A stretch of 64,000 bases of DNA from Aphrocallistes beatrix (lineage: Eukaryota > Porifera > Hexactinellida > Sceptrulophora > Aphrocallistidae): positions 11,629,524 to 11,693,523 of the forward strand of contig OY725488.1 in the NCBI GenBank assembly GCA_963281255.1, written 5' to 3'. The stretch's first letter is position 1; each line of letters opens with the position of its first letter. Below the pieces are notes generated by a model, which was not told the origin of the DNA, did no database searches, and saw only the letters and a list, made by a program, of their open reading frames with translations. This document shows positions 28,386-55,200 of this stretch, piece after piece. Position numbers and translations under genes: made by a program.

Positions 28386-31300
28386 TGTTGCAGTGCAAAC
28401 GCGAGATTGGTGTACACGCGTGTACACTGGTGTAAACCCGGGTTTCCATTAAGTTTGATAATCTCGCGTTTACACCAGTGTAAACGCGAGTACCTATATA
28501 ATTAAATATTGTGGTTGATTTATTACTCTAGAATACGATATGGTGAATTGTTTATTGTTAAAACAGTATACTATATTAATTAACAAATTTAATACGTATT
28601 AAAATTTTCTCTTTTAATTTGTTTGGATTTCGAGAGTCTGTAGTAATTAATTGCATTGTGTTAATTTTAAAGATTCTATGTAGCATGCCATGAATAAATA
28701 AGAGGAGTAATTGTAGAATTTGCAATCTGCATTATACTGAAATAAGTCACGATTTTATAAGTGTGATGAAAACCTAAAATAAATGTATGATGAACAACAT
28801 AAAAATAAGTATTCATTAAATGTCTTTGTCATCTCGAGAGATATTTTTTCCTGTTTATAGTAAATCTGACAGCTGTTAAATTGCTTGGAATGGTGCATGA
28901 GCAGATGTTGAGTTTGATGTTCTTGTTGCAGTGCAAACCCGAGATTGGTGTGAATGTTGCAGTGCAAACGCGAGATTGGTGTATACGCGTGTACACCAGT
29001 GTGAACGCGTGTACACCAACTAGCTGGTGTACACGCGTGTACACTGGTGTAAACCCGGGTTTCCATTAAGTTTGATAATCTCGCGTTTACACCAGTGTTA
29101 ACGCGAGTACCTATATAATTAAATATTGTGGTTGATTTATTACTCTAGAATACGATATGATGAATTGTTTATTGTTAAAACAGTATACTATATTAATTAA
29201 CTAATTTAATACGTATTAAAATTTTCTCTTTTAATTTGTTTGGATTTCGAGAGTCTTTAGTAATTAATTGCATTGTGTTAATTTTAAAGATTCTATGTAG
29301 CATGCCATGAATAAATAAGAAGAGTAATTGTAGAATTTGCAATCTGCATTATACTGAAATAAGTCACGATTTTATAAGTGTGATGAAAACCTAAAATAAA
29401 TGTATGATGGGCAACATAAAAATAAGTATCCATTAAATGTCTTTGTCATCTCGAGAGATATTTCTTCCTGTTTACAGTAAATCTGACAGCTGTTAAATTG
29501 CTTGGAATGGTGCATGAGCAGATGTCGAGTTTGATGTTCTTGCAAAATGCCATAAGTAGATATGTTCATTGACAATTTAGTCTAGATCATAGAATTGCAA
29601 TTGTTGCATATTAAAATGTCCAAGGTAGAGTTTGAAAAATTGGTGTTTTCTTTGTCGAAGGATGCATCAAGTTCGAATTTTACACGAGCTGATATTGTTA
29701 ACAAAATCGCAATGCTTCATGGAGCGAAACCGTCGGTCAACCAGAAAAAAGAACTCTCAAAATGGCAAAGGGTTCATGATCGCTTTGAGTTATTATCCTA
29801 TCAAGGAACAGAAATTCTTTATCTGAAGAGGAGATGAGATGCACCTGCGAAACGGGTATTGGCAGTGGAGGAGTTGTTCCCAATCTTGGAAAAGCTTCAC
29901 AAAATCGAGGGGAACCATACAGGTCGGACAACTCTACAAACGTGCTGCACAAGAGTTTTACGGTGTAAGTGAAAAAATATGTGGACTGTTCGTTAGGACA
30001 TGTCAAGTGTGCCACCTCAAAAAGTCCAAGAAGTCCCTTAAGAGCATTGTTGTAAAACCCATATCTTCAACCAACTTTCTTTCCCGGGCTCAGATCGATT
30101 TGATAGATATGAGCGATCAGAATCCTGAGGTTAATCTATCACCAGATGGCGTCACACCCTATAAGTTTATATTGGTGTACATCGATCATTTTACCAAGAA
30201 GATAAATGTGTTCCCGCTCAAACGTAAAACAGCTGAAGAGGTAACTGAGCGACTTTTAGATATCTTCTGTGATTCTGGGCCTCCTCAAATCTTGCACTCT
30301 GACAATGGGAAAGAGTTTTCCAACAATCTTCTGTTTTCAACTCTAGCAGCGAAGTGGCCCACTTTGAAGATAGTTCACGGGAAACCTCGACATCCAGAGA
30401 GTCAAGGAGCTGTAGAGCGAGTTAATCGCGACATTAAGGACAGCCTATTCGGGATGATGCATGATCATGACAACGATCAATGTTGGGTCAAATACCTCAG
30501 ATGGGTGCAATGGAATCATAATACTAGTTACCATACAGCAATTCGAATGAGTCCATATGAAGCTGTATATAACAAAAAGCCTTCGATCGGGTTATCCAAT
30601 ATTAGCATTCCTCAAGAATTCTGGGCAGAGATTAACACTAAAGATGACATTGATATCTTTCAAAAGGAGATAGAACAACGTGAAAGCTTAGAGGTTGACA
30701 ACGAACTTTTGGATAGCATCGAACGTTCAGAGTTTGATAGCCATTATTCGCAAATTGATTCACCTCTTTCAATTATTTCTCATTACGATGAATATGATCA
30801 TGTTATTCCATCACCACCTCCCTCAAAATTTCCTCCTATCGATGAATATGATAATGCAATTGTGGCCCCACTTCCGGTTGGAATAATTGTTCACGAAAAT
30901 CTTGTCCCAATTCGATCTGAAAGTTTCCCAACACCGGTGAATAATTCATTTGCTCAAAATATCCAAATTTCTAATTCTCCAAGTAATTCATATCAAGTCC
31001 CCTCAGCAGAATCAGATTGTTTGAATCCTAGCAAAGAATGCGTTGTATGCTGCAGAGAAACAACTGGTGCACACTCATGTCCATATTGTTTTGGAAATAT
31101 CCACACTATCTGTGGAAGAACTGAAGGAGAGGAAGGCTACGGAAGTAGTGTGGTGTGCCCTGCATGTGATTTTTCGACAAGAAATGCTGCATGCGATAAG
31201 ATTGAATCAAACGCAGCCAAGAAAAGCAGCAAGAGAGAATGTTAAATGCAAGTGTGAAGAAGTTCAAGCATGCTGAAGTGGGTGATTCAGTGCTAATACC

Positions 31301-34559: not shown

Positions 34560-36170
34560 TCAGAGTGAGTAAATATACAAGTATTTTCTGTTGATTGGTA
34601 GATTTTCGGAGAGGATATTATGATTTCTATATAGATCAATTGCAATAAAATTTAGTTGAACAATTACAAGCCCCTCTATTGAAAATAAATAAGCAGTTTT
34701 GTTGTTAAAACAACTATGACCCCTATGACATTTTGTGTTGCAACTTCTATTCGTTTTTTTGCAGGGACATCTCTGAGTTTTGCAATATTTACACCTGCAA
34801 GCTGAGTTACCTACGATGCCAAGAGATGCATTCTGCATTGCCTCTGTCTGCGTTACTGTAATACTAGGAATTGACTCAATTGAGAGAAGCTTCGTAGGAC
34901 ATACTTCAAACTGGTTTCGACTATAATTAACCGCCAATTTCCCTCGAGATGTTCCTATTGAATATGTGGAGTCCCCTATACTCGTTATACACCCAAGAAT
35001 GTTGCGTGGGCCTAAAGAACTAATTTTGTCAGGCTGTGAGATAGGTATTAATACTGAATCTCCCACTTCAGCATCCTTGAACTTTTTGGAACTCGCATTT
35101 AGCATCCTCTCCTGTTGATTTTCCTGGCTCCGTTTGATTGCAGCTCTCATTTGATTGCATTCTTCATTCCTATTTGAAATGTCACATGCAGGGCATATTA
35201 CCCCACTTCCATAGCCTTCCTCTCCCTCTGATCTTCCACAAATAACATGGATAAACCCAGAACAATATGGACATGTATGTGCACCAGATGTTTCTTTGCA
35301 ACAAACAACACATTCTTTACTTGCTATTGACGACGAACAAGTAGGTTCTGGTGAAATTAATGGAGAAAGATCTGATGGGGCGTCAATGGGATATGAAAGT
35401 CTATCAACCGACGACTGACTTCCTTGATCAAATGAACTGCAAGATGGTAGAATATGAAACTTAGAGAGAGATGGTATCACGCAGTCGCTAACAATTATCC
35501 CAGAAGGTAGTGGTTCATCATATTCATTCTCGTACTCATTGACTCGGGGAGGAAATTTTGAAAGAGGTGAAGAAGCAATCAATGGAGAAGATTGTTCATC
35601 AAAATCGGGAACATTATCTCCTACTTCTGAATGATCATTGACTTCTGCAACACTAGGTTGGGCTATCTCCCTCTGAAAAATATCGATATCGTCTTCAGTG
35701 TTGATGTCTGGCCAGAATTCACGAGGAATGCCAATATTTGTCAAACCGATTGAAGGTTTTTTATTGTACACTGCCTCATATGGAGTCATTCGGATTGCAG
35801 TGTGGTAGCTGGTGTTATGATTCCATTGTACCCATCTGAGGTATCTCACCCAACAATGGTCGTTGTCATGATCGTGCATCATCCCGAACAGCGCGTCTTT
35901 TACATCGCGATTGACTCTTTCCACAGCGCCTTGAGTTTCTGGGTGTCGGGGTGTGCCATGAACGATTTTAAGGTTTGGCCATTTCGCTGCTAGGGTGGAG
36001 AAAAGGAGGTTGTTTGAAAATCCCCTGCCATTATCTGAGTGAAGGATTTGAGGTGGACCAGAATCACAAAAAATATTGAGGAGTTGCTCAGTTACCTCTT
36101 CGGCCGACTTGCGTTTGAGTGGCATTAAGTTGATCTTTTTGGTGAAATGATCAATGTATACCAAAATCTT
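34560..36170 (-). pseudogene. Second, 5'-truncated KRBA2-like integrase copy
   Basis: One uninterrupted frame starts abruptly inside the integrase core at VYIDHFTKK (near 36164) and continues through the HSDNGRGF and QGAVERVNRD blocks, the PHD-like Cys block and the CXC tail (CRCKYCKTQRCPCKKTNRSC), then reads on past the usual end. It lies inverted to the copy at 29.6-31.7 kb and is closely similar to it. The region encoding the N-terminal domain and about 100 further residues is absent and I find no terminal inverted repeats, so it is a truncated copy. It was probably mobilised as part of a larger element or left by deletion. Confidence 0.75.
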
Positions 36171-36592
36171 ATCTTAAAATATGAGATATTTACATACACG
36201 TACTGTTAATATCGGATGACTATTTTTTCTTTTATAGTAAACACCCCGAATCTTATGGTTTCTCCGCCCAAAATGACTTAAATCGGAAATGACGTGACAC
36301 ACTGCAGGAGCAAAGTTATTACTAGTAATAGAATATACAAAAGTAGATTGGGATTTTGATACTTCATAGATCAATGCACATACATATTTTTAAATTGAGC
36401 AAGAATAGTCATATAGGTTTATTCTTGGCTGTTTACAAGTGTGTAAAAAATGTATAATCAAATCTTTTTGGAAATCAAAAGTGGTCAATTGAGCAAAAGT
36501 ATTTATTTAATAAGCCCTAAAGCAACAGAACAAAGCTTGTATACACAAAATGAATATAGAAAATTAAGGTATAGAGAAGAGTTTGCAAATTG
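36171..36592. repeat. Spacer with a short CCCGCCCAAAATGACTTA-family repeat
   Basis: A fragment at about 36240-36305 (TTCTCCGCCCAAAATGACTT) belongs to a dispersed family also at 46605-46695, 49640-49742, 53497-53578 and 56818-56895. Nothing else was seen. Confidence 0.45.
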
Positions 36593-38812
36593 TTAAACAT
36601 ATTTGTTTGCAGAATATAAGAAATTTGAACCTCCACCATTACTTGAAAGTAACTTCTTCATTTGAGTGTCAATGTTCGGTGTCTGAGATAAATTTGGCAT
36701 GGGACAAGTGCTATTTATAGCTGTATTTGGAAATATGCTACTAGATTGTTTTCCTGTATTAGTTTTGGTATGATTTCCTTTGCTAGTAGAAGTTAATTTG
36801 CCTTGCGTATTCTTTGTAGTACATTTCAAGTGTTCTGGCTTGGGAATTATTTTCGAAATGTTTTGCGCCTCACTTTTATTAGTAGTAGAAAGATTTTTAG
36901 AATTATTAGAGGATTTGTGATAACCTTTGTCGTGTTCTCTGTTTTCTCTCATAGAATAACTATACATTTCCACACTTATATTCTCATCCGTTTTCGTAGT
37001 CTCACTAATCCTGAAGTCTTGCACTGGTAAACTTGTATTTTTGTCCTGTGATGTTGATTGGCATGCATTATTTATAGGTGAATGTCCACTTAAGTCTAAT
37101 TGAGGATATTGAGTTGGATTTTCAGAATAGTTGCTAAGGATCTTACTTCTATGGCTTTCTTCGAATTTTGGTGATATTTCCGGTGACTCAAATGTATTTG
37201 ATTTTAATGGCAACCTGCTTTGTGAATACTTTCCTGGAGATGGACTTTTACTTTCGAATATAGGATTAGAAGCAGTTCTTCTGAGTGTTATTCTAGTATC
37301 ACCTTTTGGAGGCATTTCGATAGATACCACAGGATTACAGTCGTTAAACTTCAATTTAATGTTCGAAATATCTGAGTCATTCAACAAAACGGAATCCTCT
37401 ATTGACAATTTTGTAGAGCAAGTAAATTCTTCGCTGTTAGATATGTTAACACAGTCAGTTGAAACTGTGGAGTGAAATAGCTCAAAGAAAATTAGATTCT
37501 TTCTATTGAATTCTTTACTTCTTCTAGCTAGTTTCCTTATTTTATTCTTCTTTAAATTCAAACTCCCCACTATATCAGTAGTCTCACTCATCATGAAGTT
37601 AAACACTCCTTGCAACATTGCTGATACAGTGTACGCAGGTTTCCAGCACTTAGGATTAAAATCACTCAATTCAAAGGAAATTTTTTCATTTTCTTTATAA
37701 CGTCCGTTAGGCGTAATGAACTGAATTTGGGGAGGAGAGAAAGGGTAATTCTCTGGAAATTCTAATTTTCCATGATATTCTCCTCCCTCAAAGGGAGTTT
37801 CTTTAAGTCCTATAAATTTGAAATGCCAGTCTGAGATTTCATTTTGTCTATAATTGACTATAATGTTATCAATTGGATCTTTTGATAGTTTTTCAAATTC
37901 TTTTAAAATCCTTTCTTTCTTTTCTGCCGCTAAATTTAAATGAACATTATTCGAAAATGAAGAAGTTTCTGAAGGCAAATGTTGTTGTGAAATCGATTGG
38001 GAAAAACCTTTTTGGTGAACTTCAGAATTTTTGTAGTCAGTTTTACTTCCGGGAATCGCTCCGAAATCTGATATTGTTTCTGGGTTCGCTGGTTGAGGCA
38101 AGTCTGAAATATCGTATGAAATAGGGTCCGATGAAAGTTTCTTTCCTTCAAGAAATGTATTTGTTGTAGAAATATTTTGCGTTTTGATTTTATTTGATGT
38201 AGTTTTGGATAATTTACTGTGCTCATCTGATTGATTTGAAAGAATCTCGGTATGATCAGTGTCCGCGTTGGAAAATGGACCAGAATGGTCAGGATTGGAT
38301 GTGTACTGATTACGGAACATTTCAGTGCAAATTTTATTTTTTCTATTAAAATCTTTGCTTTTTCTAGCTAAACTTCTTACCACAGCCGTATCCATTATTA
38401 AACTTCCCACTACTTCTGTTGTTTCAGTCATCATGAAGCTATACACTCCTTGTAACACTACTGACACAGTGAAGGCAGGTTTCCAACATTCAGGATGGAA
38501 ATCACTCAATGCAAAACAAACTCTCTCATGTGTCTTGAAGCGTCCGTTAGGCGTAATGAAACGAATAGAGGGAGGGGAGAAAGGATAATTACCTGGAAAT
38601 ACTAGTTTTCCATGATATTCTCCTCCCTCAAAAGGGGTCACTTCAAGACCTATAAGCAAAAAGTGCCATTCTAAAAAATTATCTTCTTCGAAATTAACGA
38701 ATATGTTGTCAATTGGGGTTCTTGATATTTGTTTATATTCGCCTAAAAGTCTTTTCTTTGCTCGAATTAACCAGCGTGTACTTTCACTTTGAGAAAAAGA
38801 AGAAACTTTCAT
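36593..38812 (-). CDS. UBE2J-like E2 with two UBC domains, the second lacking the catalytic cysteine
   Basis: An intronless 739-residue frame from ATG 38812, preceded immediately by in-frame TAG in an acceptor-like ATATTCTAG. UBC domain 1 (about 10-165) follows the UBE2J/Ubc6 pattern: FEGGEYHGKL, NYPFSPPSI, TPNGRFKT, then RVCFALSDFHPECW with C99 at the thioester position. UBC domain 2 (about 295-450) has the same blocks exactly 280 residues later, but reads KISFELSDFNPKCW, so S379 replaces the cysteine. A serine/asparagine-rich, probably disordered tail of about 290 residues follows. Canonical UBE2J proteins have one UBC and a C-terminal membrane anchor; no anchor is present here. It should take a modifier from an E1 and pass it to an E3, with domain 2 as a non-catalytic binding or regulatory copy (inference). 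It is co-directional with an RBR E3 494 bp upstream. Confidence 0.9.
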   Translation of the reverse strand: MKVSSFSQSESTRWLIRAKKRLLGEYKQISRTPIDNIFVNFEEDNFLEWHFLLIGLEVTPFEGGEYHGKLVFPGNYPFSPPSIRFITPNGRFKTHERVCFALSDFHPECWKPAFTVSVVLQGVYSFMMTETTEVVGSLIMDTAVVRSLARKSKDFNRKNKICTEMFRNQYTSNPDHSGPFSNADTDHTEILSNQSDEHSKLSKTTSNKIKTQNISTTNTFLEGKKLSSDPISYDISDLPQPANPETISDFGAIPGSKTDYKNSEVHQKGFSQSISQQHLPSETSSFSNNVHLNLAAEKKERILKEFEKLSKDPIDNIIVNYRQNEISDWHFKFIGLKETPFEGGEYHGKLEFPENYPFSPPQIQFITPNGRYKENEKISFELSDFNPKCWKPAYTVSAMLQGVFNFMMSETTDIVGSLNLKKNKIRKLARRSKEFNRKNLIFFELFHSTVSTDCVNISNSEEFTCSTKLSIEDSVLLNDSDISNIKLKFNDCNPVVSIEMPPKGDTRITLRRTASNPIFESKSPSPGKYSQSRLPLKSNTFESPEISPKFEESHRSKILSNYSENPTQYPQLDLSGHSPINNACQSTSQDKNTSLPVQDFRISETTKTDENISVEMYSYSMRENREHDKGYHKSSNNSKNLSTTNKSEAQNISKIIPKPEHLKCTTKNTQGKLTSTSKGNHTKTNTGKQSSSIFPNTAINSTCPMPNLSQTPNIDTQMKKLLSSNGGGSNFLYSANKYV

Positions 38813-39306
38813 CTAGAATATGATATAAAAGCTAAAATTTGATAAAAAAGATAGAATAACAAATATGAATGGCGGACACTTCGTCAACGGACATTTAGTA
38901 TAATGAACATCCTTTCAAAAAGATATTTCATCTGGTTTGGATTTCGTCAGATATATTTTGACACTTTAATTTGTAATTGTTCAAAAAATTGATTGTTTAC
39001 TTTATGGCTGCAGGGCTGGGTTTGGATAAATGATTTAGCTAAATATTTTTGGAAATTTAGGGATATTGCTTTTACTTGTAGCAGTATTAGCATCATGAAA
39101 AAGTAAAATAATTCACACTCTATGCTATCGAATATTTAGGCAGTCTTACTTCTATAGAAAAACAACAAGCATGTTTCCATAGAATGAATATAAACTACTG
39201 TAGATAATATTTTAGTCAATCTTGGATAACATATTAACACAACACAAAGTCTCTTTTAGGAATCATGTATATAAATTCATCCTCTTGTCATGGTGCGCTT
39301 GGTAAG
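38813..39306. other. 494-bp spacer between RBR and E2 genes
   Basis: It contains one end of the GGCGGACACTTCGTC repeat family near 38872; otherwise AT-rich with no gene. It would hold the 3' end of the RBR transcript and the promoter or trans-splice site of the E2 gene. Confidence 0.45.
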
Positions 39307-40125
39307 TTATTTTTTTAGTTTAGTCTGTATAGGAGCCGGAGTACATGTAATTTTAGTGTAATTTCTTCCCTTACAAATGAGACTACCTCCACTAGTCTTG
39401 GTTAAGCAAATGAAGCAGAACTTTGTCTTACAACTCCTGCACGTCATTTCATTACAGCCACCATGATGCTGAATAACTGTAAAGCATTCTGGACAAGCTC
39501 TTATTTGAGGAACCTTTACCACTTTTGTACCATCATTAAATTCCATCAATGGACTCGCCCGAAGTTGGTCGATGTCATCCTTTAGACAGCCTGAATTCCC
39601 GCATTCTCTGAAGTTACTTGGATTGTTCCACTCCTTCAAGCAATACCAGCAAAAGTGGTAATCCTTCATCTTCTTATTGGTACAGCTAAGGCATTTCACT
39701 GCAGGGTTATTTGAATCTTTTCGTGTACAAAAGCTTTCACAACCTGGACATAATTGAATATCTTGACTCTCACAAAAGTTTACGGATATCGCAACAGTTA
39801 ACAACTGTTCTTCTTTATCATTTGGAATACCAAACTTAATGATATCATCGGTGCTTATAATATGTGGACATTTAGCACAACTTATCTCGAATTTCAAGTT
39901 TTTAATCTGTTCCCACGTATTGTCAAGCAGATCATCAGGGCATATGAAATGACCACATGTCATTTTCAGACCGCTTTCATCAAAGCAAATACAGCACTCT
40001 CCCTTAGGATGAGAAAATGATACAGTTCTTTTCTCATCTCTTGCATCGATATAGTCGTTTCCTTTTCGTGTTCCCCATACATTGCAATTATATTCTTCGA
40101 GAGAAGATTTTTGAGCTGCACACAT
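39307..40125 (-). CDS. RBR-type (RING-IBR-RING) E3 ubiquitin ligase
   Basis: Intronless, 272 residues from ATG 40125; an in-frame extension upstream lacks an ATG. RING1 begins CCIC (44-47) with CGH and CAKC later. The IBR has LCPGC...CTR, KCLSC and FCWYC (to about 162). RING2 is CPECFTVIQHHGGCNEMTC (211-229) followed by CKTKFCFIC; C224 in HGGC is the expected thioester cysteine, as in parkin and HHARI. By family it accepts ubiquitin or a ubiquitin-like protein from an E2 onto C224 before transfer. It is short, with no UBL, ankyrin or Ariadne domain, so autoinhibition is not evident. It lies between the ubiquitin-like gene (upstream) and the two-domain E2 (downstream), all on the minus strand. 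Confidence 0.93.
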   Translation of the reverse strand: MCAAQKSSLEEYNCNVWGTRKGNDYIDARDEKRTVSFSHPKGECCICFDESGLKMTCGHFICPDDLLDNTWEQIKNLKFEISCAKCPHIISTDDIIKFGIPNDKEEQLLTVAISVNFCESQDIQLCPGCESFCTRKDSNNPAVKCLSCTNKKMKDYHFCWYCLKEWNNPSNFRECGNSGCLKDDIDQLRASPLMEFNDGTKVVKVPQIRACPECFTVIQHHGGCNEMTCRSCKTKFCFICLTKTSGGSLICKGRNYTKITCTPAPIQTKLKK

Positions 40126-40210
40126 CACTAATTTTTGATATGAATTAATAAAAAGCAAGATAAATAATTAACGCTTGCGTCTCTAAGGGTTTTAGATATC
40201 ACAAACAAGC

Positions 40211-40280
40211 TTTTTTGATTGCGTTCCGCAGCTTGCGGACACTGCGTATCCACAGAGTCGCCCTGTAGGCGCCTGAGGAT
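40211..40280. repeat. GC-rich tail of the CRE/AP-1-motif repeat
   Basis: An isolated fragment (GCGGACACTGCGTATCC region) matching tails at 16505, 17045, 43575, 44295 and 54400. Confidence 0.5.
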
Positions 40281-40327
40281 TCTCTACTACTAAAGATTGC
40301 TGAATTTTCATTTGTCTATGGTTACAG

Positions 40328-40670
40328 TCATGAATTCAGAACTGTAGAAGAAAAAGTTTCAAAAACATTTTCAGATATTATCACGTATATATGAACGACA
40401 ACCTATTGTTAAAGTAAAGTCGTAAATGTACCTGGCATTCAAGATTTAATCATTTCTTTTCCTTTTTTGATTGTGAGGTTTCTCGTATATTTCAGTTTTG
40501 AGTATTTCACAATTAACAATCATTGTTTCACTTGGCAAAAAACTTATGGAGTGATTATCTTGAGGATAGATGCCACACCTTTCAAAAATCACGAAGGTGT
40601 AGAGCCCAAAGATGAGTTTAAATTTGTGAGTCTCTGCGTGAGGCTTGGACTATTGTTAGAAAAATTATAG
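40328..40670 (+). CDS. Possible two-exon gene fragment, function unknown
   Basis: An acceptor-like GGTTACAG precedes a 57-bp open stretch (40328-40384) ending at a weak GTATAT donor. A strong pyrimidine tract and TTTCAG (ending 40495) opens a 58-codon frame closing with TAG at 40668-40670. Phases join. The peptide has no motif I recognise, and no upstream start was found. It is on the opposite strand to the ubiquitin-pathway genes. Confidence 0.25.
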
Positions 40671-41513
40671 TATACCTTGGCAGGGACGTAACCAGCCTCT
40701 TACGCCTGGGTGAGGAAGTTTGGAAAATTTCCTCAAAATGAGTTTTCGAGCGCAGACCTGCCGACTTTTACAATCAATTACCTGAATGGATAACTATTTT
40801 CCCCTGGACATTTGCCCATATCCCTGGATTTTGCTTGTTTAAATATCCAAAATGTTTAGTTAACCCTTGTGACATGAATGATCATCCTAAATAAACAAAG
40901 GGAATTTACAACCCATAATGTAAAAATAGTCTTCGTAAATATGAAATGATGTGTGTCTTAGGATTTCCTGGGCTTCGTAAGAATTATAATATTTACGTTT
41001 CGTATCCTACGAGTCATTTAATGTGAGGTTGCACTATCGATCTGTCGATTTTTTTAGGAAGGGACCAGAGGCCGAACAACATTTCCAGGGGGTCAAATAC
41101 TGTAATATGGGATTTAGTGCTGTACTATGTAGAGCGAAACTTTTTCAGTTTAATCACTTAAAAGATTTTATATACACCTTTAGATGCTAACCAAATATAT
41201 GTTGTAAAGATTGAAGAATTCCTAGAGGTGACGGCTGATCCTGGGACATTGGGACCTGTGATACATATTGAAATCACGTTTATAGCAAAAATCAAACGAA
41301 ATACAGTGAGTTTTGCTCATATGGAATGGTTGCTAATACGCGAAGTTGCTAATAAGGGAACATAATTAACACAAAATCTTCACCTGGGACCTGAAGATTG
41401 GTTGCTAATAGAGCAATATTGCTAATAAGGGAGTGCTAATAACCAAATTTCACTGTAATACAGTACATAGTATTATTGTTGTGATGTTACCATTCCAAAA
41501 ATACAATAAACTA
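40671..41513. other. Spacer with decayed GCTAATAAGG MITE remnants
   Basis: No gene. Around 41315-41460 repeats of GTTGCTAATA and an ACTGTAA end resemble the pogo-like family at 46850-47023. Confidence 0.4.
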
Positions 41514-42035
41514 CAGTAGAACCCCGCGTATCGGGGCACCTCCGTCCAAGCACAATGCGCCCCGATACGAGGGAGTGCCCCGATAAGCGGGATTCTGGGA
41601 AAATTATAATATACTTGTACTTTTGTGAAAATAATCAAGTTACAACTTACACAACACAACCTTAAAACTTAGTATTTCTCTATAATGGCCGCTAAGCGTC
41701 ACCCACTCCCGATAGAGACACGTGCTGAGGTCATTGAACTAAGCAAGGCAGGCAGATCCGAGAGGCAGATCGCCTTGCTTAGTTCAATGACCTCAGCACG
41801 TGTCTCTATCGGGAGTGGGTGACGCTTAGCGGCCATTATAGAGATATACTAAGTTTTCAAGCACAAAAAGTATGTTACTTGAGGGAAAAAATCTCTGGCG
41901 GAGTGCCCCGATAAGCGAATGACGCCCCAATACGCGGGGTTCACTTTTAGTGGAAAAAAAAAAAATTCCCATCCTACCGCCCCGATAAGAGGGGTGCCCC
42001 GATACCCGCAGTCCCCGATACGCGGGGTTCTACTG
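41514..42035. mobile_element. Pogo-like fold-back carrying mirrored starts of a transposase
   Basis: 522 bp between TA dinucleotides with ends CAGTAGAACCCCGCGTATCG and its complement. Its centre is a near-perfect hairpin: about 81-bp arms (41667-41749 and 41773-41855) round a 23-base loop. Each arm contains ATG and some 23-30 codons beginning MAAKRHPLPIETRAEVIELS on opposite strands. That segment resembles the N-terminal helix-turn-helix of pogo/Tigger/CENP-B-type transposases. The remainder of the transposase is absent. Confidence 0.75.
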
Positions 42036-42399
42036 TATATACTATTTCTATCCTTTCTTCATACTTATAAAACCCTTAAACGTGAAAATGACAGGTGCAT
42101 ATCTAAACTATAAACGGATTACCATCAGAGTGACCAGAGAAATTTTATCAAAGTCTGAACATTTTACTTTAGAGAAAAGAAACTTCCAAGAAGTCTTATG
42201 AAAATCTTTATACGCCATATAAGTTGACTTACATTTGTAAATAATATTATTCTGAACACATGGAAAAAACTGAACATTATCAAAGTAAGACTGAAATGTC
42301 CAGAGGAAAAAACGGTATCTAGTCACCCTAATTATAAAAAATAGAATATAAACTCAGTCCTTTCTTCCCATACTCAAAAAATCTTGCTATTTAGTAGAC

Positions 42400-42727
42400 C
42401 AGCGCTGTCTAACAGGCGGCCCGCTGCCTTGCTTTGTGCGTTGTCTGCTTCAATCTCCCCCTTTTTTACCCACTTTTAGACAAATTCTCCAAATTTTTCC
42501 ATATCATGCATCTCGTTTTCTCGTTGGTAGGGACATAGGGACATAGGGCTGATAGACCATGGTCCTACCAATTCTTTTCAATAGATATTAGCTTCTATTG
42601 TTCACGATACAAATTGTCCAAAATGCCTCTATCCATACCCATCCCGAGTGCACGCCCCTGTATTGCGGCCCGCCACTAAATGGTATGAAGCAGTTGCGGC
42701 CCAAAGTAAATATAGTTGGACGCCCTG
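42400..42727. mobile_element. hAT-type MITE with perfect 8-bp target duplication
   Basis: Ends CAGCGCTGTCTAAC and GTTGGACGCCCTG, flanked by TAGTAGAC on both sides (42392-42399, 42728-42735). The interior has GCGGCCC phrases and no coding capacity. Confidence 0.85.
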
Positions 42728-42862
42728 TAGTAGACCACACTATTTTTAAATGGAAATAAGTACAAATAATTGAAGAGAGGATAACCTCATTTTACCAAAA
42801 TAAACAAATTCAAGATATAAAAAGTTAATAAATATTATGAAATAATACTTATCATGATTGCG

Positions 42863-45139
42863 TTAAAATGCTTGAATGCCTCCTCCACCAGGAAGTCTCG
42901 CTACCATGACTATATTAGATCCATTCTTAATTCCGTAATCAATTAGCTTCTTTGTTTGACCATTGATAACTTCCTCTAATTCTTTCGAACCAAAAAGTAA
43001 TCTTTGATCTTCCCGCTGGGTTCCACTTCTCACGACTAATTCTTCCTTTAACTTCGTAACTGTATAAGCCTAGCGAAATTAAAATTTAATTATCCAGTTA
43101 TCCTTACTATTAAAACTCGATTAATGTTTATATACGTATATATATATATATATATCTGTAACGAATTGATTGAAGAAACTGCAGGTCATAGAAAGCTAAT
43201 TTTTGGCATGTGGGAGTCTTTTGGCTATGGCTCCAGTAAGTTCTGAGCTCAGAGCAAAATGTCGACTCATCATAGAATTATTACGTCATTGTCACATTTT
43301 TGTTAAGCAACAGAGTTATTCGAGCATAACTCAGCCATTATAGGAGATGGAAGGCTGAAATTTTAATAGAATCTGTATACTAACATGTCTCACATATGAT
43401 GCAACTATCATTAAAAAATGATGACTCATCACTTTGTTATGACGTCATCATTACGCATCAAAAAATTTAAAATTGACAAATTTGGTGATTTTTCGAGTGA
43501 TATCGATTATCCCAGTAGGACGGACATATTTAAAGATACTATATCCCTTATAATTAACCAATGTGACCCCATGCGACCGAAGGGAGCCTCCGTCGGACAC
43601 AAAGTGTCCGCCAGCCGCGCAGCGCAAGCAAGCGAAGCGCGTTGTCATCATTACGATACTTAAATATTCCATCTCTTAGAAAGTTGTTCAACAGACTGAT
43701 AATACAGCTACTTTAAAATGTCAAAAAATGGGGAAATTGTCCATTCATAAATTCTTACAAATATGTATATGACATACTACTCTATTTATCCGTTGGAATC
43801 TCGTGGTAGTTTATAAGTTCCATCCCAAGCTCAATTGAGATTAAATATGTAAAACTCACACAATCTTGGTTCTCATGTTGGAGATTGTAGTTAGAATATT
43901 ATGAATTATTTTGAAATTGTATAATACCTGACACTATAAATTTGCATGGTGAGTTTAAAAAGTTCACCGAAACATTGGAATTCTGTCAGGGTTACGCTGA
44001 GATTCCTTCACTCGGAAACATTCTAATTAGGTACAGAAAGCTGATTTTGCATGTGGGAGTCAAATGATATGACTACGATTAAGTTCTAAGATCTAAGCGA
44101 AAAAAAAGAAAACAGTTTTTCAATACAATACTACTATGTGCGGCTTCGCTCTCATAATAGACTCATTGTACAACTTTAGGGGTGTATAATTCGAATATTA
44201 TATTTTCGGATCTATATGAGAAATTATATTTGACTTTTGTTTACAATATTTATATAAATTAAACAAATTCCTAAATAGGCTAGATTGAGTAACTCCAGGC
44301 GCCCGCAGGGCGACTCTGCAGACACAAAGTGTCCGCAAGCCGCGCAGCGCAAGCAAGCGTAGCGCGCTTGTTAGTATTCAAAACTTCAATTCTTTCTAAT
44401 CTTATTTAAATTTTGCAATCAAATTCATTGTATAACCCATTATTTTGGAAACTATTTTTTCGAAAATAGTTTAAAAGAAGCGCATAGAGGAACGCGCTCC
44501 TTTATTGTAGGAGCGGGAGCTCTCCCACTCTTTAAAATTGGGAGCGGAGGCTGGTGGGCAGTCTAATTATATAGCTAAACCAAATTTTCACAATTACAAA
44601 AAATGAAAAATAACTTTACTATTCAATGTATATAGTACTATATTGCATCACTCTAACAGCATAAACCATTGTACGACACAACAATTTTCGTTGTTACTAA
44701 TACTTCAAAGCAATAATTTATGTACATATGCAAATTTTATTATTATGTATAGCAATGAAAAAGTTTATATGCTAATATGTGTTAAGTTTTAAAGTAAACA
44801 TATTCCTAAAATAGACTAGAGACTAGCTTTCAACAGTTGATCTAGGGCTTTTAGGAGTGTATATTCCAAATATCGTATTTTCGGGATTATATATTAAATT
44901 ATTTTGCCTCTTTTTGCAATAGTTATATAAAGTAAACAAATTTCGAAAATGGATTCGGTAAAGTCATCAATATTTGGGACCGGTTGGGAATCTCTGAATT
45001 ATTTTTAACTAGAAAATGATTATACTTGTATTTCGCCTTATGAGAAGATTCTTATATTAATACTCACATTAAATTCGCTGGTCTTAATATGTATAGTCAT
45101 CTGCTTTCCTTTAAATCCTTGTACATAGATTTGATTCAT
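42863..45139 (-). CDS. Ubiquitin-like modifier with internal diglycine (two exons)
   Basis: Exon 1 is 45139-45068 (24 codons, donor AAT|gtgagt); exon 2 is 43069-42863 (acceptor cgctag|GCT, 68 codons plus TAA). The joined frame encodes 92 residues collinear with ubiquitin: MNQIYVQGFKGKQMTI matches the first hairpin, DQRLLFGSKELEE matches the QRLIFAGKQLED region (K53 at the K48 position, K12 at K11), and LIDYGIKNGSNIVMVARLPGG matches its C-terminus. Four glycines (85-88) and IQAF follow, so a protease must expose the diglycine. Conjugation to targets is inferred from the fold and this tail. The 2-kb intron holds a CRE-type repeat and other repeats. The ATG follows AGTTTAAG, acceptor-like. RBR E3 and two-domain E2 genes lie downstream on the same strand. 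Confidence 0.85.
43101..43645. repeat. Full-length CRE/AP-1-motif repeat in the modifier intron
   Basis: It begins TCCTTACTATTAAAACTCGA with a TA-rich run, then AACGAATTGATTGAAGAAAC, TGAGCTCAGAGC, TGACTCATCACTTTGTTATG, TGACGTCATCATTACG, and ends in the GC-rich tail (GGACACAAAGTGTCCGCC ... GCAAGCGAAGCGCG). About 545 bp; it has no obvious coding function. Confidence 0.7.
43646..45067. repeat. Remainder of the modifier intron: repeat scraps
   Basis: A partial fold-back arm lies at about 43815-44000, a CRE-repeat GC tail at about 44290-44372, and GC-rich GAGCGGGAGCTC palindromes near 44510; the rest is AT-rich. No further coding exon was found. Confidence 0.45.
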
Positions 45140-46203: not shown

Positions 46204-49200
46204 CTATTGAGGTGATTCATAAACAATTTCAACATCATCTGTGTCAGATATTATTAATTGAGTGTCGGATTCATATCCATCTGCAATGTTAGAGTAAATT
46301 TCAGTGGTTTCATACAGAGGACAAACGGGATATTGTAGATAGATTGGATTGGTTTGCATTTCACACCCCATTTCCATTGAAGATAGGTTCTTGTGGATTG
46401 GGAGATCATCCAATGCAGCGTTAGTAAAGGTGGTATTTTCAATAACTAAATTATTCTGCGCTCTCTTTCCGTGTCCAAAAGTTTTAAACGTTTCTTTCAC
46501 ATTAGAGTCAACTTCGTATATGTTTCCTTCAACATTATTTGGAGATTCACTCACCGATTTCAAATCTAAAAGGAAATTTTGGTTTAAATATTTAATACCC
46601 ATCAATGTACTATGGATTTTGCTAACTCATTTCCGATTAAGTCATTTTGGGCGGGGAAACCTTAGAAATGCGGGGTCCAAGCTATAAATAGAATTGGCGG
46701 GATATTATTGATAATGAAAAATGTGATATATTTACTAACAGAGTTGTTTGACAACAATGATTTTTAATAATCAAAATCATGATTTAAATCATATACATAA
46801 TAAAGCCTCTCGTTAATACTAGCACGGATAAAGCGAAATCCTATAAGTACAGTGGTGTTCGCTTAATAGCAAGCCGATTTTAGCTCGAAATTTGCTTGCT
46901 AATAAGCGAACTTGCTAATAGAGAAACGATATTAACATAATAAGCACGCTTGGGACCTGAAAATAACTTGCTAATAGACGAATATTGCTATTAAGAGCAA
47001 TTGCTAATAAGCAAACACCACTGTACCATACGTACGTACATTCATTTCAAATCACCATGGATATCGGCTCTTACACTCAGCCAACAATTAAATGAATTAT
47101 TTCCTACATTACTGATGCTGTAGTGCGAATAATTTGAAATGAGCTGAGCTCTGTATTCATTTTGCAAAAAATAACTCACCAATCGTTCCACTTCTTGTCT
47201 TGGATTCCTTATCAAGTTGTCTCTCTAAAGTATTTTTCTTGAATCGGTTGCTGGTCAAAGAACTCGCAGTAGAGTTTGACGCATTAGATCCGGCAGGAGT
47301 CTTAAGTGTGTTTGTGGAATAAGCATATTTATCCTTTCTCTTGAGAAATGCCAACACTTCTGCATTCCTGAGCACAACTACGAAGAGGAAGACTAGCCCC
47401 ATCAAACCATTGACGATGATGAAAACCCATTCAAGAACTGAATGCTGAATTGCAACGTTGAAGATCAGAATCAACCAAGGCAATCCAAGCACAGGTGTCA
47501 GCACCAACCCAGCGACCAGGGCACTCTTAATGGTATCTCGAGCTTCGTTATCTTTATTGGATTTAGCTTGGATGATTCGAATCATGGCGATTATCAGGAA
47601 GATAACATTAACCAATATTATACTCCAAATAGGCACAATAAAAGCCCAAATGACGCCTCCTATAACGTTGAGGAAACAGTGCCTGCTGACATCCACGTAG
47701 TAATCTCTTGCAACAGCTATAGTGATGATTGGAATGATTACAGGAAATATCCAACCGAAAACCATCAGATACTTATATATTTTCCTTGTGGACAAAACGC
47801 CTAAAAGAGAGTATATTTTGTTAGTCAAAATTGTAAGTTTCATTCTTAATTCACTGTTTGGGAGCATTAGAAAATATTGAAGATTCAACACCAGTAATTA
47901 GGTTCAAACTCACCTATGACGAGTTTATGCATGATGAATATTCCAATGCAAAAGGTCCAGGTAAACACTGCTAGCCAGGAGTAGTGGAGTAGGAATGCAA
48001 TTATCTTACACAACACAATGTGATATGTACCAACTTGAATCCCAAATACGAAGAGTCCAGTGGCGAGTAGCATAGAGATGCAATAGTTGAAGTAGACAAT
48101 GTTAGCTTCCACTTTGAAAAAGATTTTTCTTGCTGAAATGAATATGATGAGAGACATTAACAGAGAGATGAATGAGATGCCAACGAACAGATAACTAATG
48201 ACTGAAAGTGCTATTGATTCGCCAAAACTTCTCTGAATCTCATGAGGAGTAACGAATACTGCGAAACTCGTGAAATGGGAAGAGATACAGTTTGTGAAAT
48301 TTGGACTCTTTTGATCTGTGTTTAGACCGTTACTGACCCAATTTGTTCCATTCAGGAATGCACAAATACTTTTAGATTTAGAAGCTTCACTAGAATACAC
48401 ATCGAATGAGAGTGTTGCCTAGAGGGATTAGAACAATAAAGTAGTTCGGTGCATTTTATATGCACATTATAATAGTACAGTCGACTCCGCTCAATAGGAC
48501 CAACGGTTAATATGGGGCAAACACACTACAAAAATCGGACCACTTTTGGCAGGCCCAGAATAGTTATCACACATAGAAGCAGATACAAAATATTCTTGAT
48601 CAATAGGGTTCTCAGCTTAATCAGATCAAAACATTCTTCCACCGATGTGGTCCTATTAAGCAGAGTCGACTTTATATTGTTAAATTGTTGAGTAAATATT
48701 CAGCTTTTACGCATTTGAAAGCTAATAATGTAGTATAATTATGAAGATTGGTATATCTACTTGTAGCATTGTTATAATATTATCTTTTAAGGATTCTTTA
48801 CCGTCGGGATGATGCGAGGTTACTGGGGAAAAAGGGTTGATGAGAAAAAAGTATCTAATTTCGTAAATAATGAATTTTGGCCCTAACGATTTGAGGGATG
48901 TGGATTATCTACGTACACAGCTATGCTAATAATGAATAAAAAAGAGATTGAATGCATCCTTTAAAGAGGAAATCACAAATACAGAGTCACCACAAAAGTC
49001 ACGTAGCACTTTAATATCACAATAATTCGCTTGGAAAACTGGAATGTCTAAAAAAGAACTTAAATTAATTTCAAAAAGTGTTAACTTACGAGTAACCCTA
49101 ACTAACTTACGGGTGACCCTGTACTAGCATTGATGAAAGACAATTGAACATTGATAACGTATTATTTATACAATAAACTTACATTTTCGTTCAACATAAC

Positions 49201-52200
49201 GATACCAGACCTTCCTTCCAATGCGATCGTCAGAATATCACTGCCTTGAGTAGACTGTATGAATCCATTTTCTTCGTTGGAAACTGAATGTTGACTCTCA
49301 ATTCTTTTAGTAATCGAAGTAGCGATCTTGATAAAGGATGTTGTTAGAATATAAATTTAAATTTTTGGTTTTGTTACGCAGTAGATACAGGTTATAAGAA
49401 CATCGTTGAGAGAAAAAATGTCCATAATCGAGATGTTTTTATTAAAGACATCAGACTTTGCTACCGTTTTAAAGTTATAAAACTATCCTACCATGGATGC
49501 ATTATTATCAGAAAACCACATTTTTAAACGATACTTTCTAGTCCATTGATGAAATTACAATAACAATGACAAGCTATAAAACAATATAGATATTTGAAAT
49601 TACGTATATCCAAGTATCTTTTGTTCTAGCTTTAAACATTAGGTAATTAACCAATGACTATGGATATTGTAAACTCATTTTCAGTTAAGTCATTCGGGCG
49701 GGGAAACTTTAGAAATGTGAGGTCCAAACTATAAATAGATAACCCATATCAACCGAAGGTTTATTAAATTTGATAATTCCTACCTTCGCTGTGGTATTGA
49801 CTTACCGCTAGACTTCTTCCATCTGTTGATAGATTAGAAGCAAGATTTGCTGAAAGCTCTACCATTACAGAGTACTGCACATCTTCAGAACTCTTCTTCG
49901 GGAGAACAATTTCAGCTTTTGTACCATTCTTATCTTCACTACTGTTCAGAGCAACATTTTGGACTACAATGGTGATCAATTCTGACTCTAGCGTTCTAAC
50001 AGTGTTAACTTCTCTATTTTCCGTGAAGTTCTCGCTGAGTCGCTGTGAAAACCTCTCCAGTATATTTAATGTGACTGCAAATGCTGTAGGTATGGTTGAA
50101 ACAAGTTGAAAGACTTGTTGCTAGAAATCGAATTTACATACGTAAATATATATCGTAAACTCACAGTAAATAAAAGTACAGTAGACTCTGCTCAATTGGG
50201 TCACCTTTGTCAGGACCGGAATAGCTCTCACACATTGAAGCCAATACAAAATAATTTCGGCTATTAGGGTTCTCCGCTTAATCGGGTTAAAATGTTCTCT
50301 GATCGATGTGACCTTATTAAGCGGAGTCGACTGTAATACGGTTGCCCACATATTCATATTCAGTTAACGCGTGTTTTAAGCAGTGTATTTGTATATATTA
50401 AGGAATTCAAATATATGCTCGCATTCTAAAGCAGAAACAAAGAATGGTTCTAAAAAGTTCAAAACAACTACTATTGAACGCCCGTAGTATCATATGTACT
50501 AATTTAAGTTCTTAAATATGTAGGGTTTCACTCAGAGGGTGGTAAGGGGGCACTTCCACCCCTGCTCATTCAAGTGCCTTTTTAGAAATAAAATGAAGAG
50601 ATGTGATTTAGTACCTGCCTAGGAATCTATTGAGGAGGAAACTGGCAAATGGTCTGTATGGATGTCTTAGGTAAAATTTTACATAGACGAAGATATTAAG
50701 GAATGTCTATAGACAACTGTAGAGTCTCACTAACAAACTATCAAGGATAGATACGGTAGAACTCGGTTAGTACGTACTCGGGATAAGACGTACTTCGGCT
50801 TAGTACGTACTCATTTTCTGAACCAAAATTCATGTAATACAGTGAAGATTGGATATAACGACGTACCATCAGGTAAGAGAAAAATGTCGTTATTTGCGAT
50901 CTGTCACTACTATATCCGATCTTAGGGTCACACACACAATATACGCTTAGTTCGCTCTGGGTAAGGAAAAATGGTCGCTATTTGCGATTTGTCGTTATAT
51001 CCAATCTTCACTGTATATATATTCATATGTAATATCAACTCGGTTAGTATTTATGGATAGTACATGCTTTTTTCCGATTCCCGGAGAGGGTACGTATTAT
51101 CTACTACGTATATATGGAAATATCTTTAAAGTACCTGCGCTACATTCATCGTTTCTGATTCTTGCAAGAGTGAACTCCCATTCACGATACTACTCAGAAG
51201 CCGAGTGATCTTCTCAGCTGTCTCGCTACTGAATATCCCGTTCATCCTATCAATAATCAATTCTGCTACCCTTGCAGCATCCACTAATATCATGCTCCTA
51301 TTCTCACTCTCGATTTCAACATCATTATTTGTAGCATCAATAACAACCTTTGTGAGATCTGCGGTTTGTCCCGATCTCTCATCAGAAATGGATCCTACAC
51401 CATTTAACTCATCGCTGATTTCTTCTAAAGTTTCTTGAATGATTTCAATGGTTAATTCGAGTTCATAAGTGACAGATGCAACATCCTTTCCTGCTACATT
51501 CTCTGCTACGCAATAGAATATCTTCTCTCCATCATTTGCTAGATCTGTAATGTTGACTAGAAGTGTTGGTGAATCGATGAATTTTGACGTGAAATCTCTT
51601 GTCCAGTATATGTCTGGTAGCGGTACTCCTGTAGCAACGCATTCAATACTTTCAATAGCAACTTTGGTTAGATTCAGTATTCTCGTTATGTTCATGTTTG
51701 GGGAAGTGATTTGAGGAGCCGTGATAGTTGAAATTGTAGCAGTAGGATGTGTTGTTACATGTGATCCTAGAAATAAAAGAATTCGTTGCATCTCGTTTGC
51801 TGCTCGTGCTCCAGATCTCGACCACAACTAAATTATAATCAACATTCCGAATTTTAACATTCAAAAAGGTGCTATAGTCCTACAATTAAAGATCCTTTGA
51901 TAATAAAACTTAGCGGGAATGCCTCTTCAGAGAAGTTTTGTCTCTCATCATTACTTATACTAGTTTTGTAATATTATACGTGTAAGTAATAGTATAGAAA
52001 TGCAAAGATAAAGTTTGTTATGATAGTGAAAAAAAGATTTATCACTGATATTGATTTTAAGTAACAAAATATCAAGCCATGCATTTCAGAATTCGGCCGC
52101 TATACAATAAAGTAAAGTCTGCCAACTAAATATGACTATTTAGATAGGATTAATAAGAATCATATTGCTTTTCATCAATGAAAGTCAATTGTACTTACCG

Positions 52201-55200
52201 ATTACAGTGATATCCAATTGAATAGCAAGTGTCTGTTGATCATCCCAATTGTCAACATAGAACTTGTACACTCCTCCCTGAGTGACATAGAAAGTTGAGA
52301 AGGAGAGAGTGTTGGATGCTACAGAGCTGTTATCAGGTCTCTGCCATCTCCCAGCTAGATCAGTACTCAGAACTACATTCTGTGTCAGCACAGCAACAGA
52401 AGCTGAGTTCATGTTAGGAGGTAGGAGAGAGAATGATTGGATGGATCCGTTGTTCAATGTTATAACAGGAGTACCTGGGAAAAAGAAACGATTTATGATA
52501 AAAATTGTCATGCATTTGAACCTACAATGCATTATATTTACGTACTACAATGCATTAAAACCTACCTTGTACAGTATATTGTGTACTGAGTATGGTGGAG
52601 TTAGTTCTGATATCAATACACTGGATGTTATAGCTGGTACCACTCTGTAACAACATATTGTTGTATGGGATTAGTGGGTTTGGGAATATTCTATTATTTC
52701 CTGTAACTCTCCACTTTATATCAGTTAATGAGATGGAACTGTTGGAACTGTTGCAGAATAGAACTATCTCCTCTCTGTCTATTCCAATTGTGTAGATGCG
52801 ATCAATCGAGTTTAAACCATATTTGAACACTAGATGAAGTTGAATCTTTCAAAACGTTAAGTACAAAATAGGAATGCAAGCTATCCTTGCTCTCGCATTG
52901 CAGTTTACTTAAATTATGAAACTGTTTTGTAATTACGTTTCCTTTCGACGTTATGTATTTTATAGTATTTTGTTCGAACCTGCATAATCCGACATCCTTT
53001 AGGAAACGAAAAAATTGTCAGATTATACAGTGCAATTCATACTATGCAGCGCCAGTTAATGGTAGAAAACTAAAAACATATCGGAAAATGCAGGTCTTCC
53101 GGATTATACAGGTATTGAATAATAGAGGTTTTACTGTACAGTAAAACTTAAAGTTCACCATTTTTACTCGTATCAATGAAAGTAAAATGGAATTTAATCC
53201 TTTTTATCCTCCAAAAAAATTGGAGTATTTTTGATATATGATAAAAATCTAAATTTATACCGCCTATGGATGTAGCTAGGATTTTTAGTCCTGCACTTTT
53301 TAAGGTGATAAAGGTTACATGAAACCCTCCAGGGGTGGTGCAACCCTGTACCAAAATCGAATTACACTGCAAGCACCTTGGCTCCTCGGACGATACCAGA
53401 CTAGCACCTATAAGTGCTGACCAAGCACCTAGATAAACCCCTGGTACTGTCCTAATGGAGTTCCTAATTTTGAGATTAATTAATAATATCTTCAATGACA
53501 ATGGATTTTGCTAACTCATCCGGTTAAGTCATTATAATTACGAGGGAAGCCATAAAATGTGGGTCCAAGCTACATTAATAAGTTCAAACAATATTTGTAT
53601 ATTACCTTCAAACGACAGAGGATCCAGCATCTGAACTCTATAAATCCTACTGACTCCATTATCTCGAGTGACTTCACATGTGTAGTAGCCAGGTTTATCA
53701 GTGGTTACAGCCAGAACGCTAACTCCTGTAGCTACATTAGTTGTACCATTGAGAACTGTTATACTTCCATTTTGACCATAATGTCTCCAATTCACTTGTG
53801 GAGTGTTCTTGTTCTCTGTGATGCAATACAGAACTGTGTTTTCAGCAAGAAATGTATTATTACTCAGTTCATCCAATGTATTCGCGCTTTGTATTCTCCC
53901 AAATAAAGTTACTATAAACGGTAAATAATAAAGAAAAAGTTTGCTAATTTATCCATACAATTAAAACTTGATTAATGTTTATTTATCTATATATATCTGT
54001 AGTGAATTGATTGAAGAAACTGCCAGGCACAGAAAGCTGATTTTTAGCATCTTTTGGCTATGGCTCCAGTAAGTTCTGAGCTCAGACGAAAGTGTCGACT
54101 CATCATGGAATTATGACGTCATTGTCACCTTTTTTTATAATTAGAAATTTCAGTTTTTCGATCATAACTCAGCCATTTTAAGTGATAGAAGGCTGAAATT
54201 TAATAGAATGTGTATATTAATATAGCTCACATATGATACAACTATCATCAAAAATGATGACTCATCACTCTGTTATGATGTCATCATTACTCATCAAAAT
54301 TTTAAAAATGGACAAATTTGGTGATTTTTCGTGCGATATCGATTATTACAGTAGGATAGACGTATTTAGAGATGTTATCTCCCTTAGAATTAATCAATGT
54401 GACCCCAGACGCCCAAAGTGCGCCTCCGGTGGACACAAAGTGTCCGCCAGCCGCGCAGCGGAAGCAAGCGAAGCGCGGTTGTATCTTGAATGTATGGTAC
54501 AAATATCATCTTGTAACAAATATATTCGCTTCTATGCTTTGAATCAACTTTAATAATCTTATATCTTCCAACTAGAATGAGAAGCCGCATCAAAAAAGCA
54601 TTCATAACAAAGTAATATCCTTAATTTTCTAACAATACACATTTGCCGCATTGAATTGAATTATGTTATTTTACTAATCGGAACAAATTCACTAAGCCGA
54701 ACGACTTTTAGGCATAGATGTGTTCGGATTAGCGAGGGTGCACTGTATTAGTTATTTTTAACCTACCATCTCGAGAACTGCAGAAGTAACAACGTCTTTC
54801 CAAACCACATCTAGCATCGTTCCACCGGCGACCCCTTCTCCAATTGTTTTCAACGCAATCTTCACCTCCATGAGCATTATTTGGCTCATTGCGAGCCCAG
54901 TTCCTATAGGAGCTATTGCTTCCATCTAGCCATACAAAGCTCCTTTCTCTCTCCCCATCGTTAAGCCCAATCCAGCACGAATATCTCCTTCTAGAGTCTT
55001 CAATGTAGTTATATAATGCTGCATCTTCGCTTGCAGAATCTATACTAGCTAGATATCCTCCCCATGTCTGGCACTTAGCTCTAGCTTCAACCCAATTGAT
55101 CCGAGAAAAGAAGTAGCTGAAACATTTTCCTTCACTTGTAATCAAATCACAGCCACTGGTAGGCACTATAAACAATAAAATGGAAGAGTAGATTCCGGAT

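Follow-up and report, generated by a model that had tools for sequence, protein, structure and literature searches.

Do a ubiquitin-like (Ubl) protein, a RING-between-RING (RBR) E3 ligase and a UBE2J-like E2, encoded next to each other in the glass sponge Aphrocallistes beatrix, form a dedicated modifier pathway, or do they share nothing beyond their location? The three genes lie on the minus strand of a stretch of 64,000 nucleotides, hereafter the window, which spans positions 11629524-11693523 of contig C1 within a source genome of 100.5 Mb in 28 contigs. Our results lean, at slightly better than even chances, towards a form of the first answer, in which the window locus is one copy of a tandemly amplified glass-sponge cassette that comprises a Ubl modifier, its own RBR and, in part of the copies, its own UBE2J-derived E2.

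Three ubiquitin-system genes in the window

The trio had been noticed in a sequence-only reading of the window, and open frames and Pfam matches bear out that the Ubl, RBR and UBE2J-like E2 genes are real and correctly placed. Their features are as follows.

45068..45139, minus strand: Ubl exon 1, 24 codons (MNQIYVQGF...), donor GTGAGT, with a matching exon 1 in the paralogues
43070..45067, minus strand: predicted Ubl intron, GT...AG, about 2 kb, deduced from the sequence only
42863..43069, minus strand: Ubl exon 2 including the stop codon, 68 aa, Pfam ubiquitin match
42884..42898, minus strand: C-terminal Arg-Leu-Pro-Gly-Gly of the Ubl, followed by the six-residue tail GGIQAF
40128..40129, minus strand: AG two bases 5' of the RBR start codon, a possible splice or spliced-leader acceptor
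39307..40125, minus strand: RBR E3 ligase gene, 272 aa in one frame (IBR matches, zinc ligands, structure model)
39868..39996, minus strand: RBR RING1 ligand region, residues 44-86, (nearly) invariant Cys/His
39586..39750, minus strand: RBR IBR ligand region, residues 126-180, aligned zinc ligands
39373..39495, minus strand: RBR RING2 region, residues 211-251 (Pfam and alignment)
39454..39456, minus strand: RBR codon for the catalytic Cys224, in the RING2 GGC motif
36593..38812, minus strand: UBE2J-derived E2, 739 aa, two UBC domains and a long tail without recognised domain
38312..38800, minus strand: E2 UBC domain 1, with the J2 active-site Cys and His
38516..38518, minus strand: E2 catalytic Cys codon (equivalent to Ubc6 Cys87)
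37463..37924, minus strand: E2 UBC domain 2, with Ser for the catalytic Cys and Asn for the His
37676..37678, minus strand: Ser codon at the catalytic position of E2 domain 2

Exon 2 of the Ubl gene matches PF00240 at 1.4e-7, as befits a ubiquitin-fold sequence, and its product is 36% identical to ubiquitin over the aligned part. The C-terminus reads ARLPGG-GGIQAF, a Gly-Gly followed by a removable tail, in agreement with the earlier proposal of a processable diglycine. A protein search with the Ubl returned solely the window's own fragment.

The RBR assignment also holds. IBR models are the sole Pfam matches of the protein (two, at 3.9e-7 and 4.5e-7), and an alignment of relatives shows the zinc ligands of RING1, IBR and RING2, with the catalytic Cys224 in 22 of the 24 aligned rows having letters at that position. 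The predicted structure (pLDDT 84.3, pTM 0.82) yielded 114 Foldseek matches to solved structures, of which the best 50 are all RBR ligases, with ARIH2 first; ARIH1, HOIL-1, HOIP, parkin and RNF216 are also among the matches. TM-scores by query length are low, 0.15-0.35, because the domains are arranged differently. An NCBIfam scan of the RBR and of both UBC domains was uninformative, and an RBR alignment search of viral contigs and genome contigs, a weak test with two patterns each, found no relative.

The E2 frame matches UQ_con at 6.2e-35 in two stretches, and its closest solved structure is UBE2J2 (4.3e-42). Domain 1 retains the TPNGRF motif (GRF loop) and the active-site Cys, Asp and His of J2 enzymes, the Cys and His corresponding to Cys87 and His94 of Ubc6 (PMC11649903). 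The second UBC domain had been overlooked; catalytic Cys and His occur in domain 1 only, and domain 2 should be inactive, because Ser and Asn replace these residues. Neither does the frame follow the UBE2J2/Ubc6 layout of a single UBC domain with a C-terminal anchor: no membrane anchor was found, the top 19-residue hydropathy being 1.02 versus 2.90 in an anchored copy from the cluster (single-frame reading). Thus, the description of this gene as UBE2J-like is right for its nearest structure and for the active site of domain 1, although the frame holds a second, dead UBC domain.

The trio is one unit of a tandem array

Relatives of the three genes are concentrated around the window. All 37 genome matches of the RBR, which we merged by hand into 29 places (omitting a 29-residue fragment at 11870749), are on C1:11.40-11.99 Mb, and ordinary IBR proteins occur on other contigs too. 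Likewise, 14 of the 21 Ubl matches are on C1:11.67-11.99 Mb, with two on C12, two on C16 and three on C20; an exon 1 counterpart is present upstream of exon 2 in all 13 other Ubls of the cluster. For each of these 14 Ubls, the next member of the three families downstream is an RBR on the same strand, at a distance of 615-3969 bases; in the pair at 11.972 Mb, the RBR is broken and an unrelated frame lies between the two. All 14 Ubls thus have a same-strand RBR no more than 4.5 kb downstream, whereas 10,000 trials of random placement with strand kept gave 1.9 on average and never more than 9, which rules out a lone accidental trio. Repeated similar frames of about 370-390 aa, rich in hydrophobic residues, lie between cassettes at C1:11962000-11981999 (L062, L063).

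The E2 is distributed less regularly. Of the 61 matches from a whole-genome search, 28 are on C1:11.66-11.96 Mb; outside the cluster the only clearly UBE2J-like E2s are at C16:4038827 and C1:5443241 (43 and 42% identity). Each of the 14 cluster E2 places with the highest scores (at least 199 bits) follows downstream of an RBR on its strand, and of the three families only E2s intervene. These 14 places belong to five cassettes, those of the window (one E2), 11.857 Mb (four), 11.900 Mb (one, with a stop), 11.906 Mb (seven) and 11.944 Mb (one), so that the order Ubl-RBR-E2 on one strand appears in 5 of 14 cassettes. The other nine show no E2 match directly after the RBR, and Ubl plus RBR is therefore the core of the cassette. 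A second E2 group, 50-55% identical, occupies 11.81-11.90 Mb on the plus strand, in the opposite orientation to the minus-strand RBRs of that interval; the one member that we read ends in a hydrophobic segment like UBE2J2, as do the first-group proteins P0045 and P0047.

The cassettes also appear to have been copied as wholes. Distances among Ubls track the distances among their partner RBRs (Mantel r 0.81, and 0.79 on exon 2 alone; 0/20,000 permutations each, with 12 of the 14 pairs, two partner RBRs being broken). Because duplication of whole cassettes yields matched distances, these indicate shared inheritance, not function; and since the window locus belongs to a tandem array as one of its units, duplication history accounts for part of the linkage. 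Linkage of the families is nevertheless much stronger than a single locus can demonstrate, with 14 Ubl-RBR pairs, five of them followed by E2s in the same order and strand; the three-gene locus as such is real, but it is a single repeat unit of a type that carries an E2 in a minority of copies.

Kept residues and selection

Arg-x-x-Gly-Gly is at the C-terminus of all 14 cluster Ubls, with differing Gly codons. In 13 of them the Gly-Gly is followed by a tail of 1-6 residues, and one ends at Gly-Gly. All 14 have Arg at the place of ubiquitin Arg72, the residue that is read by the E1. By comparison, Gly-Gly is missing from the four dispersed relatives on C12 and C16, and of the 16 repeats in two ubiquitin-repeat genes on C15, examined by eye, a single one ends in it. 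The C15 genes come from an array of frames built of diverged ubiquitin repeats (C15:555-585 kb). The relatives on C20 are three single-frame Ubls (484-491 kb) joined through Gly-Gly to a fused Cys-rich domain.

The catalytic Cys224 is kept in the 12 intact RBRs that are paired with a Ubl. Position 224 is Ser in all three readable RBRs of a Ubl-less group at C1:11.40-11.56 Mb (L043, L046 and L049), which are likely dead ligases because the catalytic Cys is lost; a coiled-coil exon lies upstream of two of them (L043 and L049).

Ratios of nonsynonymous to synonymous substitution (dN/dS) show purifying selection in the three families. Among the Ubls, the 10 closest of 91 exon-2 pairs give 0.19-0.65; among the RBRs, the 20 closest of 153 pairs give 0.15-0.39. 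Four comparisons of UBC domains range over 0.18-0.32, and the full-length comparison of the window E2 with its nearest copy gives 0.40. Repeat decay or gene-calling noise would account for the broken units, namely the RBRs at C1:11974478 and 11897884 and the E2 at 11896369 with its stop, but as an explanation of the window copy it is refuted by open frames, kept active sites and close-copy dN/dS well under 1, and we give it next to no credence.

Relatives in a second glass sponge

A protein search with the RBR retrieved 41 proteins including the window copy, and the only named source among them is the glass sponge Oopsacas minuta, with four. One of these, P0026, is annotated as a single gene model with a Ubl followed by an RBR, joined at RLP. 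In a tree rooted at the midpoint, the RBR of P0026 belongs to a clade (support 100/99) with another Oopsacas RBR, three further proteins and 10 RBRs of the A. beatrix genome, the latter as a subclade of their own (95/93). Because P0026 shares this supported clade with 10 A. beatrix RBRs, the clade, and the Ubl-RBR linkage in it, seem to predate the split of the two sponges. The two other Oopsacas RBRs fall outside the clade, and the tree does not resolve their placement with respect to the window copy. P0040 is a single open frame Ubl-LPGG-RBR with a very long branch and an unsure place in the tree. The predicted structure of P0026 is poor (pLDDT 55.3, pTM 0.39) and uninformative on Ubl docking. 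Linkage in related genomes is thus seen for Ubl and RBR, in the Oopsacas gene model, but not for the E2, whose protein search, with 7994 candidates scored, showed no Oopsacas relative.

E1 enzymes, proteases and other arrays

No E1 or protease had been visible next to the trio, and this extends to the cluster: family searches, which score only the best candidates, gave no match there to E1s or ubiquitin-specific proteases (USPs), and the presence of either inside the cluster was rejected. The nine PF10585 matches fall at four other loci, which correspond to UBA6 (C14), UBA1 (C4), a UBA1-like gene (C7) and an unclassified E1 (C6). The C7 gene was called by eye from its likeness to that on C4, and its 91-aa piece matched no solved structure.

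Other ubiquitin-system genes also occur in arrays. There are more than ten USP (UCH) matches at C17:3.63-3.67 Mb, and nine E2-like matches at C7:242-390 kb (L071:2-1912), seven of them in frames of 841-1,081 aa, of which the one that we read joins VWA, E2 and U-box in one chain. The UBA1-like E1 gene (C7:357.5-359.3 kb, L067) sits among these E2-like matches.

A proposed dedicated pathway and its alternatives

As a single reading, a dedicated modifier pathway fits the sequences best, and we hold it to be somewhat more probable than all else taken together. The module would be lineage-specific and amplified, and is probably fed by a general E1. Charging and transfer of the Ubl, the pairing of each Ubl with its neighbour and the biological role are what we infer from the kept residues and the known RBR mechanism, as follows. 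A protease of the ubiquitin-specific type would cut off the short tail so that Gly-Gly is exposed; activation of the Ubl, helped by its Arg at the Arg72 place, would fall to a general E1 (UBA1, UBA6 or the additional UBA1-like gene); UBC domain 1 would accept the Ubl on its Cys and pass it to the RBR, which would take it on Cys224 and then put it on substrates. The dead UBC domain 2 could act as a binding module, like UEV. That there are many diverged copies suggests several modifier-ligase pairs working in parallel, perhaps in defence or self-recognition. More tentatively, and with decidedly less confidence, glass sponges may run at least 12 different private Ubl tags, each matched to the adjoining RBR and some to their own J-type E2, as an orthogonal repertoire that amplifies like an immune gene family.

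This pathway is supported by the constant order and matched distances of Ubl and RBR, by the best E2s being downstream of an RBR, by the kept Arg-x-x-Gly-Gly of the cluster Ubls versus the C12 and C16 relatives and the kept Cys224 of the paired RBRs versus the Ser of the Ubl-less group, by the low dN/dS, by the Cys and His of E2 domain 1, and by the Oopsacas gene model. There is also a precedent, since ARIH1, an RBR, is an E3 for ISG15, which it attaches to cGAS via Cys357 (PMC9551088).

Several observations weigh against it. The place of ubiquitin Arg74 is Pro in 10 of the 14 cluster Ubls (His, Gln, Ser and Arg once each), and Cys224 is also present in the four readable RBRs of the same stretch that are not next after a Ubl; retention of this residue therefore does not depend on pairing. 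Nine cassettes lack an E2 after the RBR, one of the five that have it combines an E2 stop codon with a broken RBR, and linkage of the E2 was seen in one genome only. UBE2J enzymes are known to work with RING E3s and to have a membrane anchor, which is not found in the window E2, and the E1 and USP matches are all outside the cluster. Finally, joint duplication alone produces linkage and matched distances. In all, the idea of a dedicated chain gains from the repetition of the linkage and from the Oopsacas model, and loses from the scarcity of the E2, its dead domain and the possible fusion of Ubl and RBR discussed below.

The most serious competitor is linkage without a shared pathway, in which tandem co-amplification keeps the genes together, with the RBR and E2 working on ordinary ubiquitin and the Ubl serving as a free regulator or as a decoy. 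Joint duplication would suffice for order and distances, most paired RBRs are not followed by an E2, and the USP, ubiquitin-repeat and VWA-E2-U-box arrays on C17, C15 and C7 show that arrays arise easily in this genome. We nevertheless consider it unlikely, because the Gly-Gly is universal in the cluster Ubls versus its near absence from the C15 repeats and its absence from the C12 and C16 relatives (the three C20 Ubls keep it before the fused domain), and because a Ubl-RBR model is found in Oopsacas as well.

A second alternative, which we judge less probable still, is that Ubl and RBR are one gene, either a chain with a regulatory Ubl as in parkin/HOIL-1 or a precursor cut after LPGG. P0040 is such a single frame, and P0026 reads RLP-ET-MADV, as from a splice inside the first Gly codon (protein sequence only). 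The window copy has a GT within the codon for Gly75, and the AG two bases ahead of the RBR start codon matches it in phase; an in-phase AG occurs in 4 of the 12 intact cassettes, three of which also have a GT inside a Ubl Gly codon. A Ubl-RBR fusion transcript without Gly-Gly could therefore form, and this is the chief doubt about a dedicated modifier. Nonetheless, the window Ubl has its own stop codon and a frame separate from the RBR; no AG of compatible phase is present in the open stretch upstream of the RBR ATG in eight of the 12 intact cassettes, and three of these eight have a stop codon immediately before the ATG. A splice that fused the two would remove the Gly-Gly, which is kept, and the Oopsacas case is an annotated model. 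The AG before the RBR could be explained equally well by a spliced leader, such as Aphrocallistes vastus uses (PMC10282587); a spliced leader would also allow an operon-like message.

It is highly improbable, in our estimate, that ordinary ubiquitin is the main cargo of the E2 double gene, which would then be a soluble J2-type enzyme that modifies serine/threonine and lies near the RBR by chance. The Cys, Asp and His of the J2 family in domain 1 would be consistent with this (PMC11649903). Against it, replacement of Ser89 by Ala was reported to abolish the RING-driven gain (PMC11649903), and the Ser89 place is Ala, Glu, Asp or Ile in six E2s read, of the seven that are first or second after an RBR; Ser89 is kept in the anchored copy and in four members read from farther along one array. 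This comparison was made post hoc, with protein identifiers assigned to places by frame length.

Neighbouring genes

The window contains further recognisable frames. Two similar transposon-like frames, with an integrase core and a SCAND3-like zinc finger, are at 29827-31245 on the plus strand and 34560-36173 on the minus strand, the second just beyond the E2 gene. An NLR-like frame of 1,127 aa occupies 10430-13813 on the plus strand (NACHT, 2.4e-16, with a weak NLRC4 HD2 match). Pieces of an adhesion-type receptor (GPS motif and 7tm_2) are at 47157-48418 on the minus strand, an Ig-like match at 51129-51827 may belong to the same receptor, and a C-type lectin domain is at 54732-55202 on the minus strand (5.6e-18).

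Comparison with known systems

In the ISG15 system the genes lie unlinked, and the E2 belongs to the L type, not to the J type. That system (ISG15, UBA7, UBE2L6 and HERC5, with ARIH1) likewise places a modifier outside the core set with its own E2 and E3, and an RBR can serve in it (PMC9551088). ISG15, identified in vertebrates only, contains two Ubl domains (PMC9722776), whereas the sponge modifier has a single one. An ISG15-type tandem Ubl with UBA7 and UBE2L6 was not found: the Ubl is single, the E2 is J-type, and the E1s are UBA6, UBA1, a UBA1-like gene and an unclassified one.

The Caldiarchaeum operon of ubiquitin, E1, E2 and a small RING E3 likewise clusters modifier, E2 and E3, and there too the precursor tail is removed first (PMC5654768). 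It differs in being prokaryotic, in including the E1, in having a small RING and not an RBR as E3, and in not being described, in the accessible text, as an amplified array (PMC5654768). The sponge cluster, by contrast, contains no E1 match.

Parkin and HOIL-1 also inherit Ubl and RBR together, and P0026 and P0040 look joined in the same way, but in the former two these are one chain, whereas the window Ubl carries a Gly-Gly end and a stop codon of its own. In parkin, the Ubl is not known to act as a modifier. UBE2J2/Ubc6 shares TPNGRF, catalytic Cys and His with UBC domain 1 of the sponge E2, which differs in its two UBC domains, the second dead, in the tail anchor that was not found and in the adjacent RBR. 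The ARIT clade of teleost RBRs is likewise RBR-only, without flanking domains, and two of its salmon genes are induced by virus/interferon (PMC12234341); linkage to a Ubl or E2 is not mentioned in the accessible text (PMC12234341).

A search of the open-access literature, which leaves subscription journals largely outside its coverage, showed no Ubl-RBR-E2 cluster of sponges or other animals among the matches listed. We know of no animal locus that holds a Ubl modifier together with its E2 and E3, nor, to our knowledge, has a J-type E2 feeding an RBR been described. If true, our reading would provide such a pairing and would add a modifier system outside vertebrate ISG15, which may serve defence in an animal without adaptive immunity. 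A repeated cassette with kept active sites offers matched and mismatched pairs in which co-evolution of E2, E3 and modifier can be tested; the array supplies its own controls, and is therefore of high interest.

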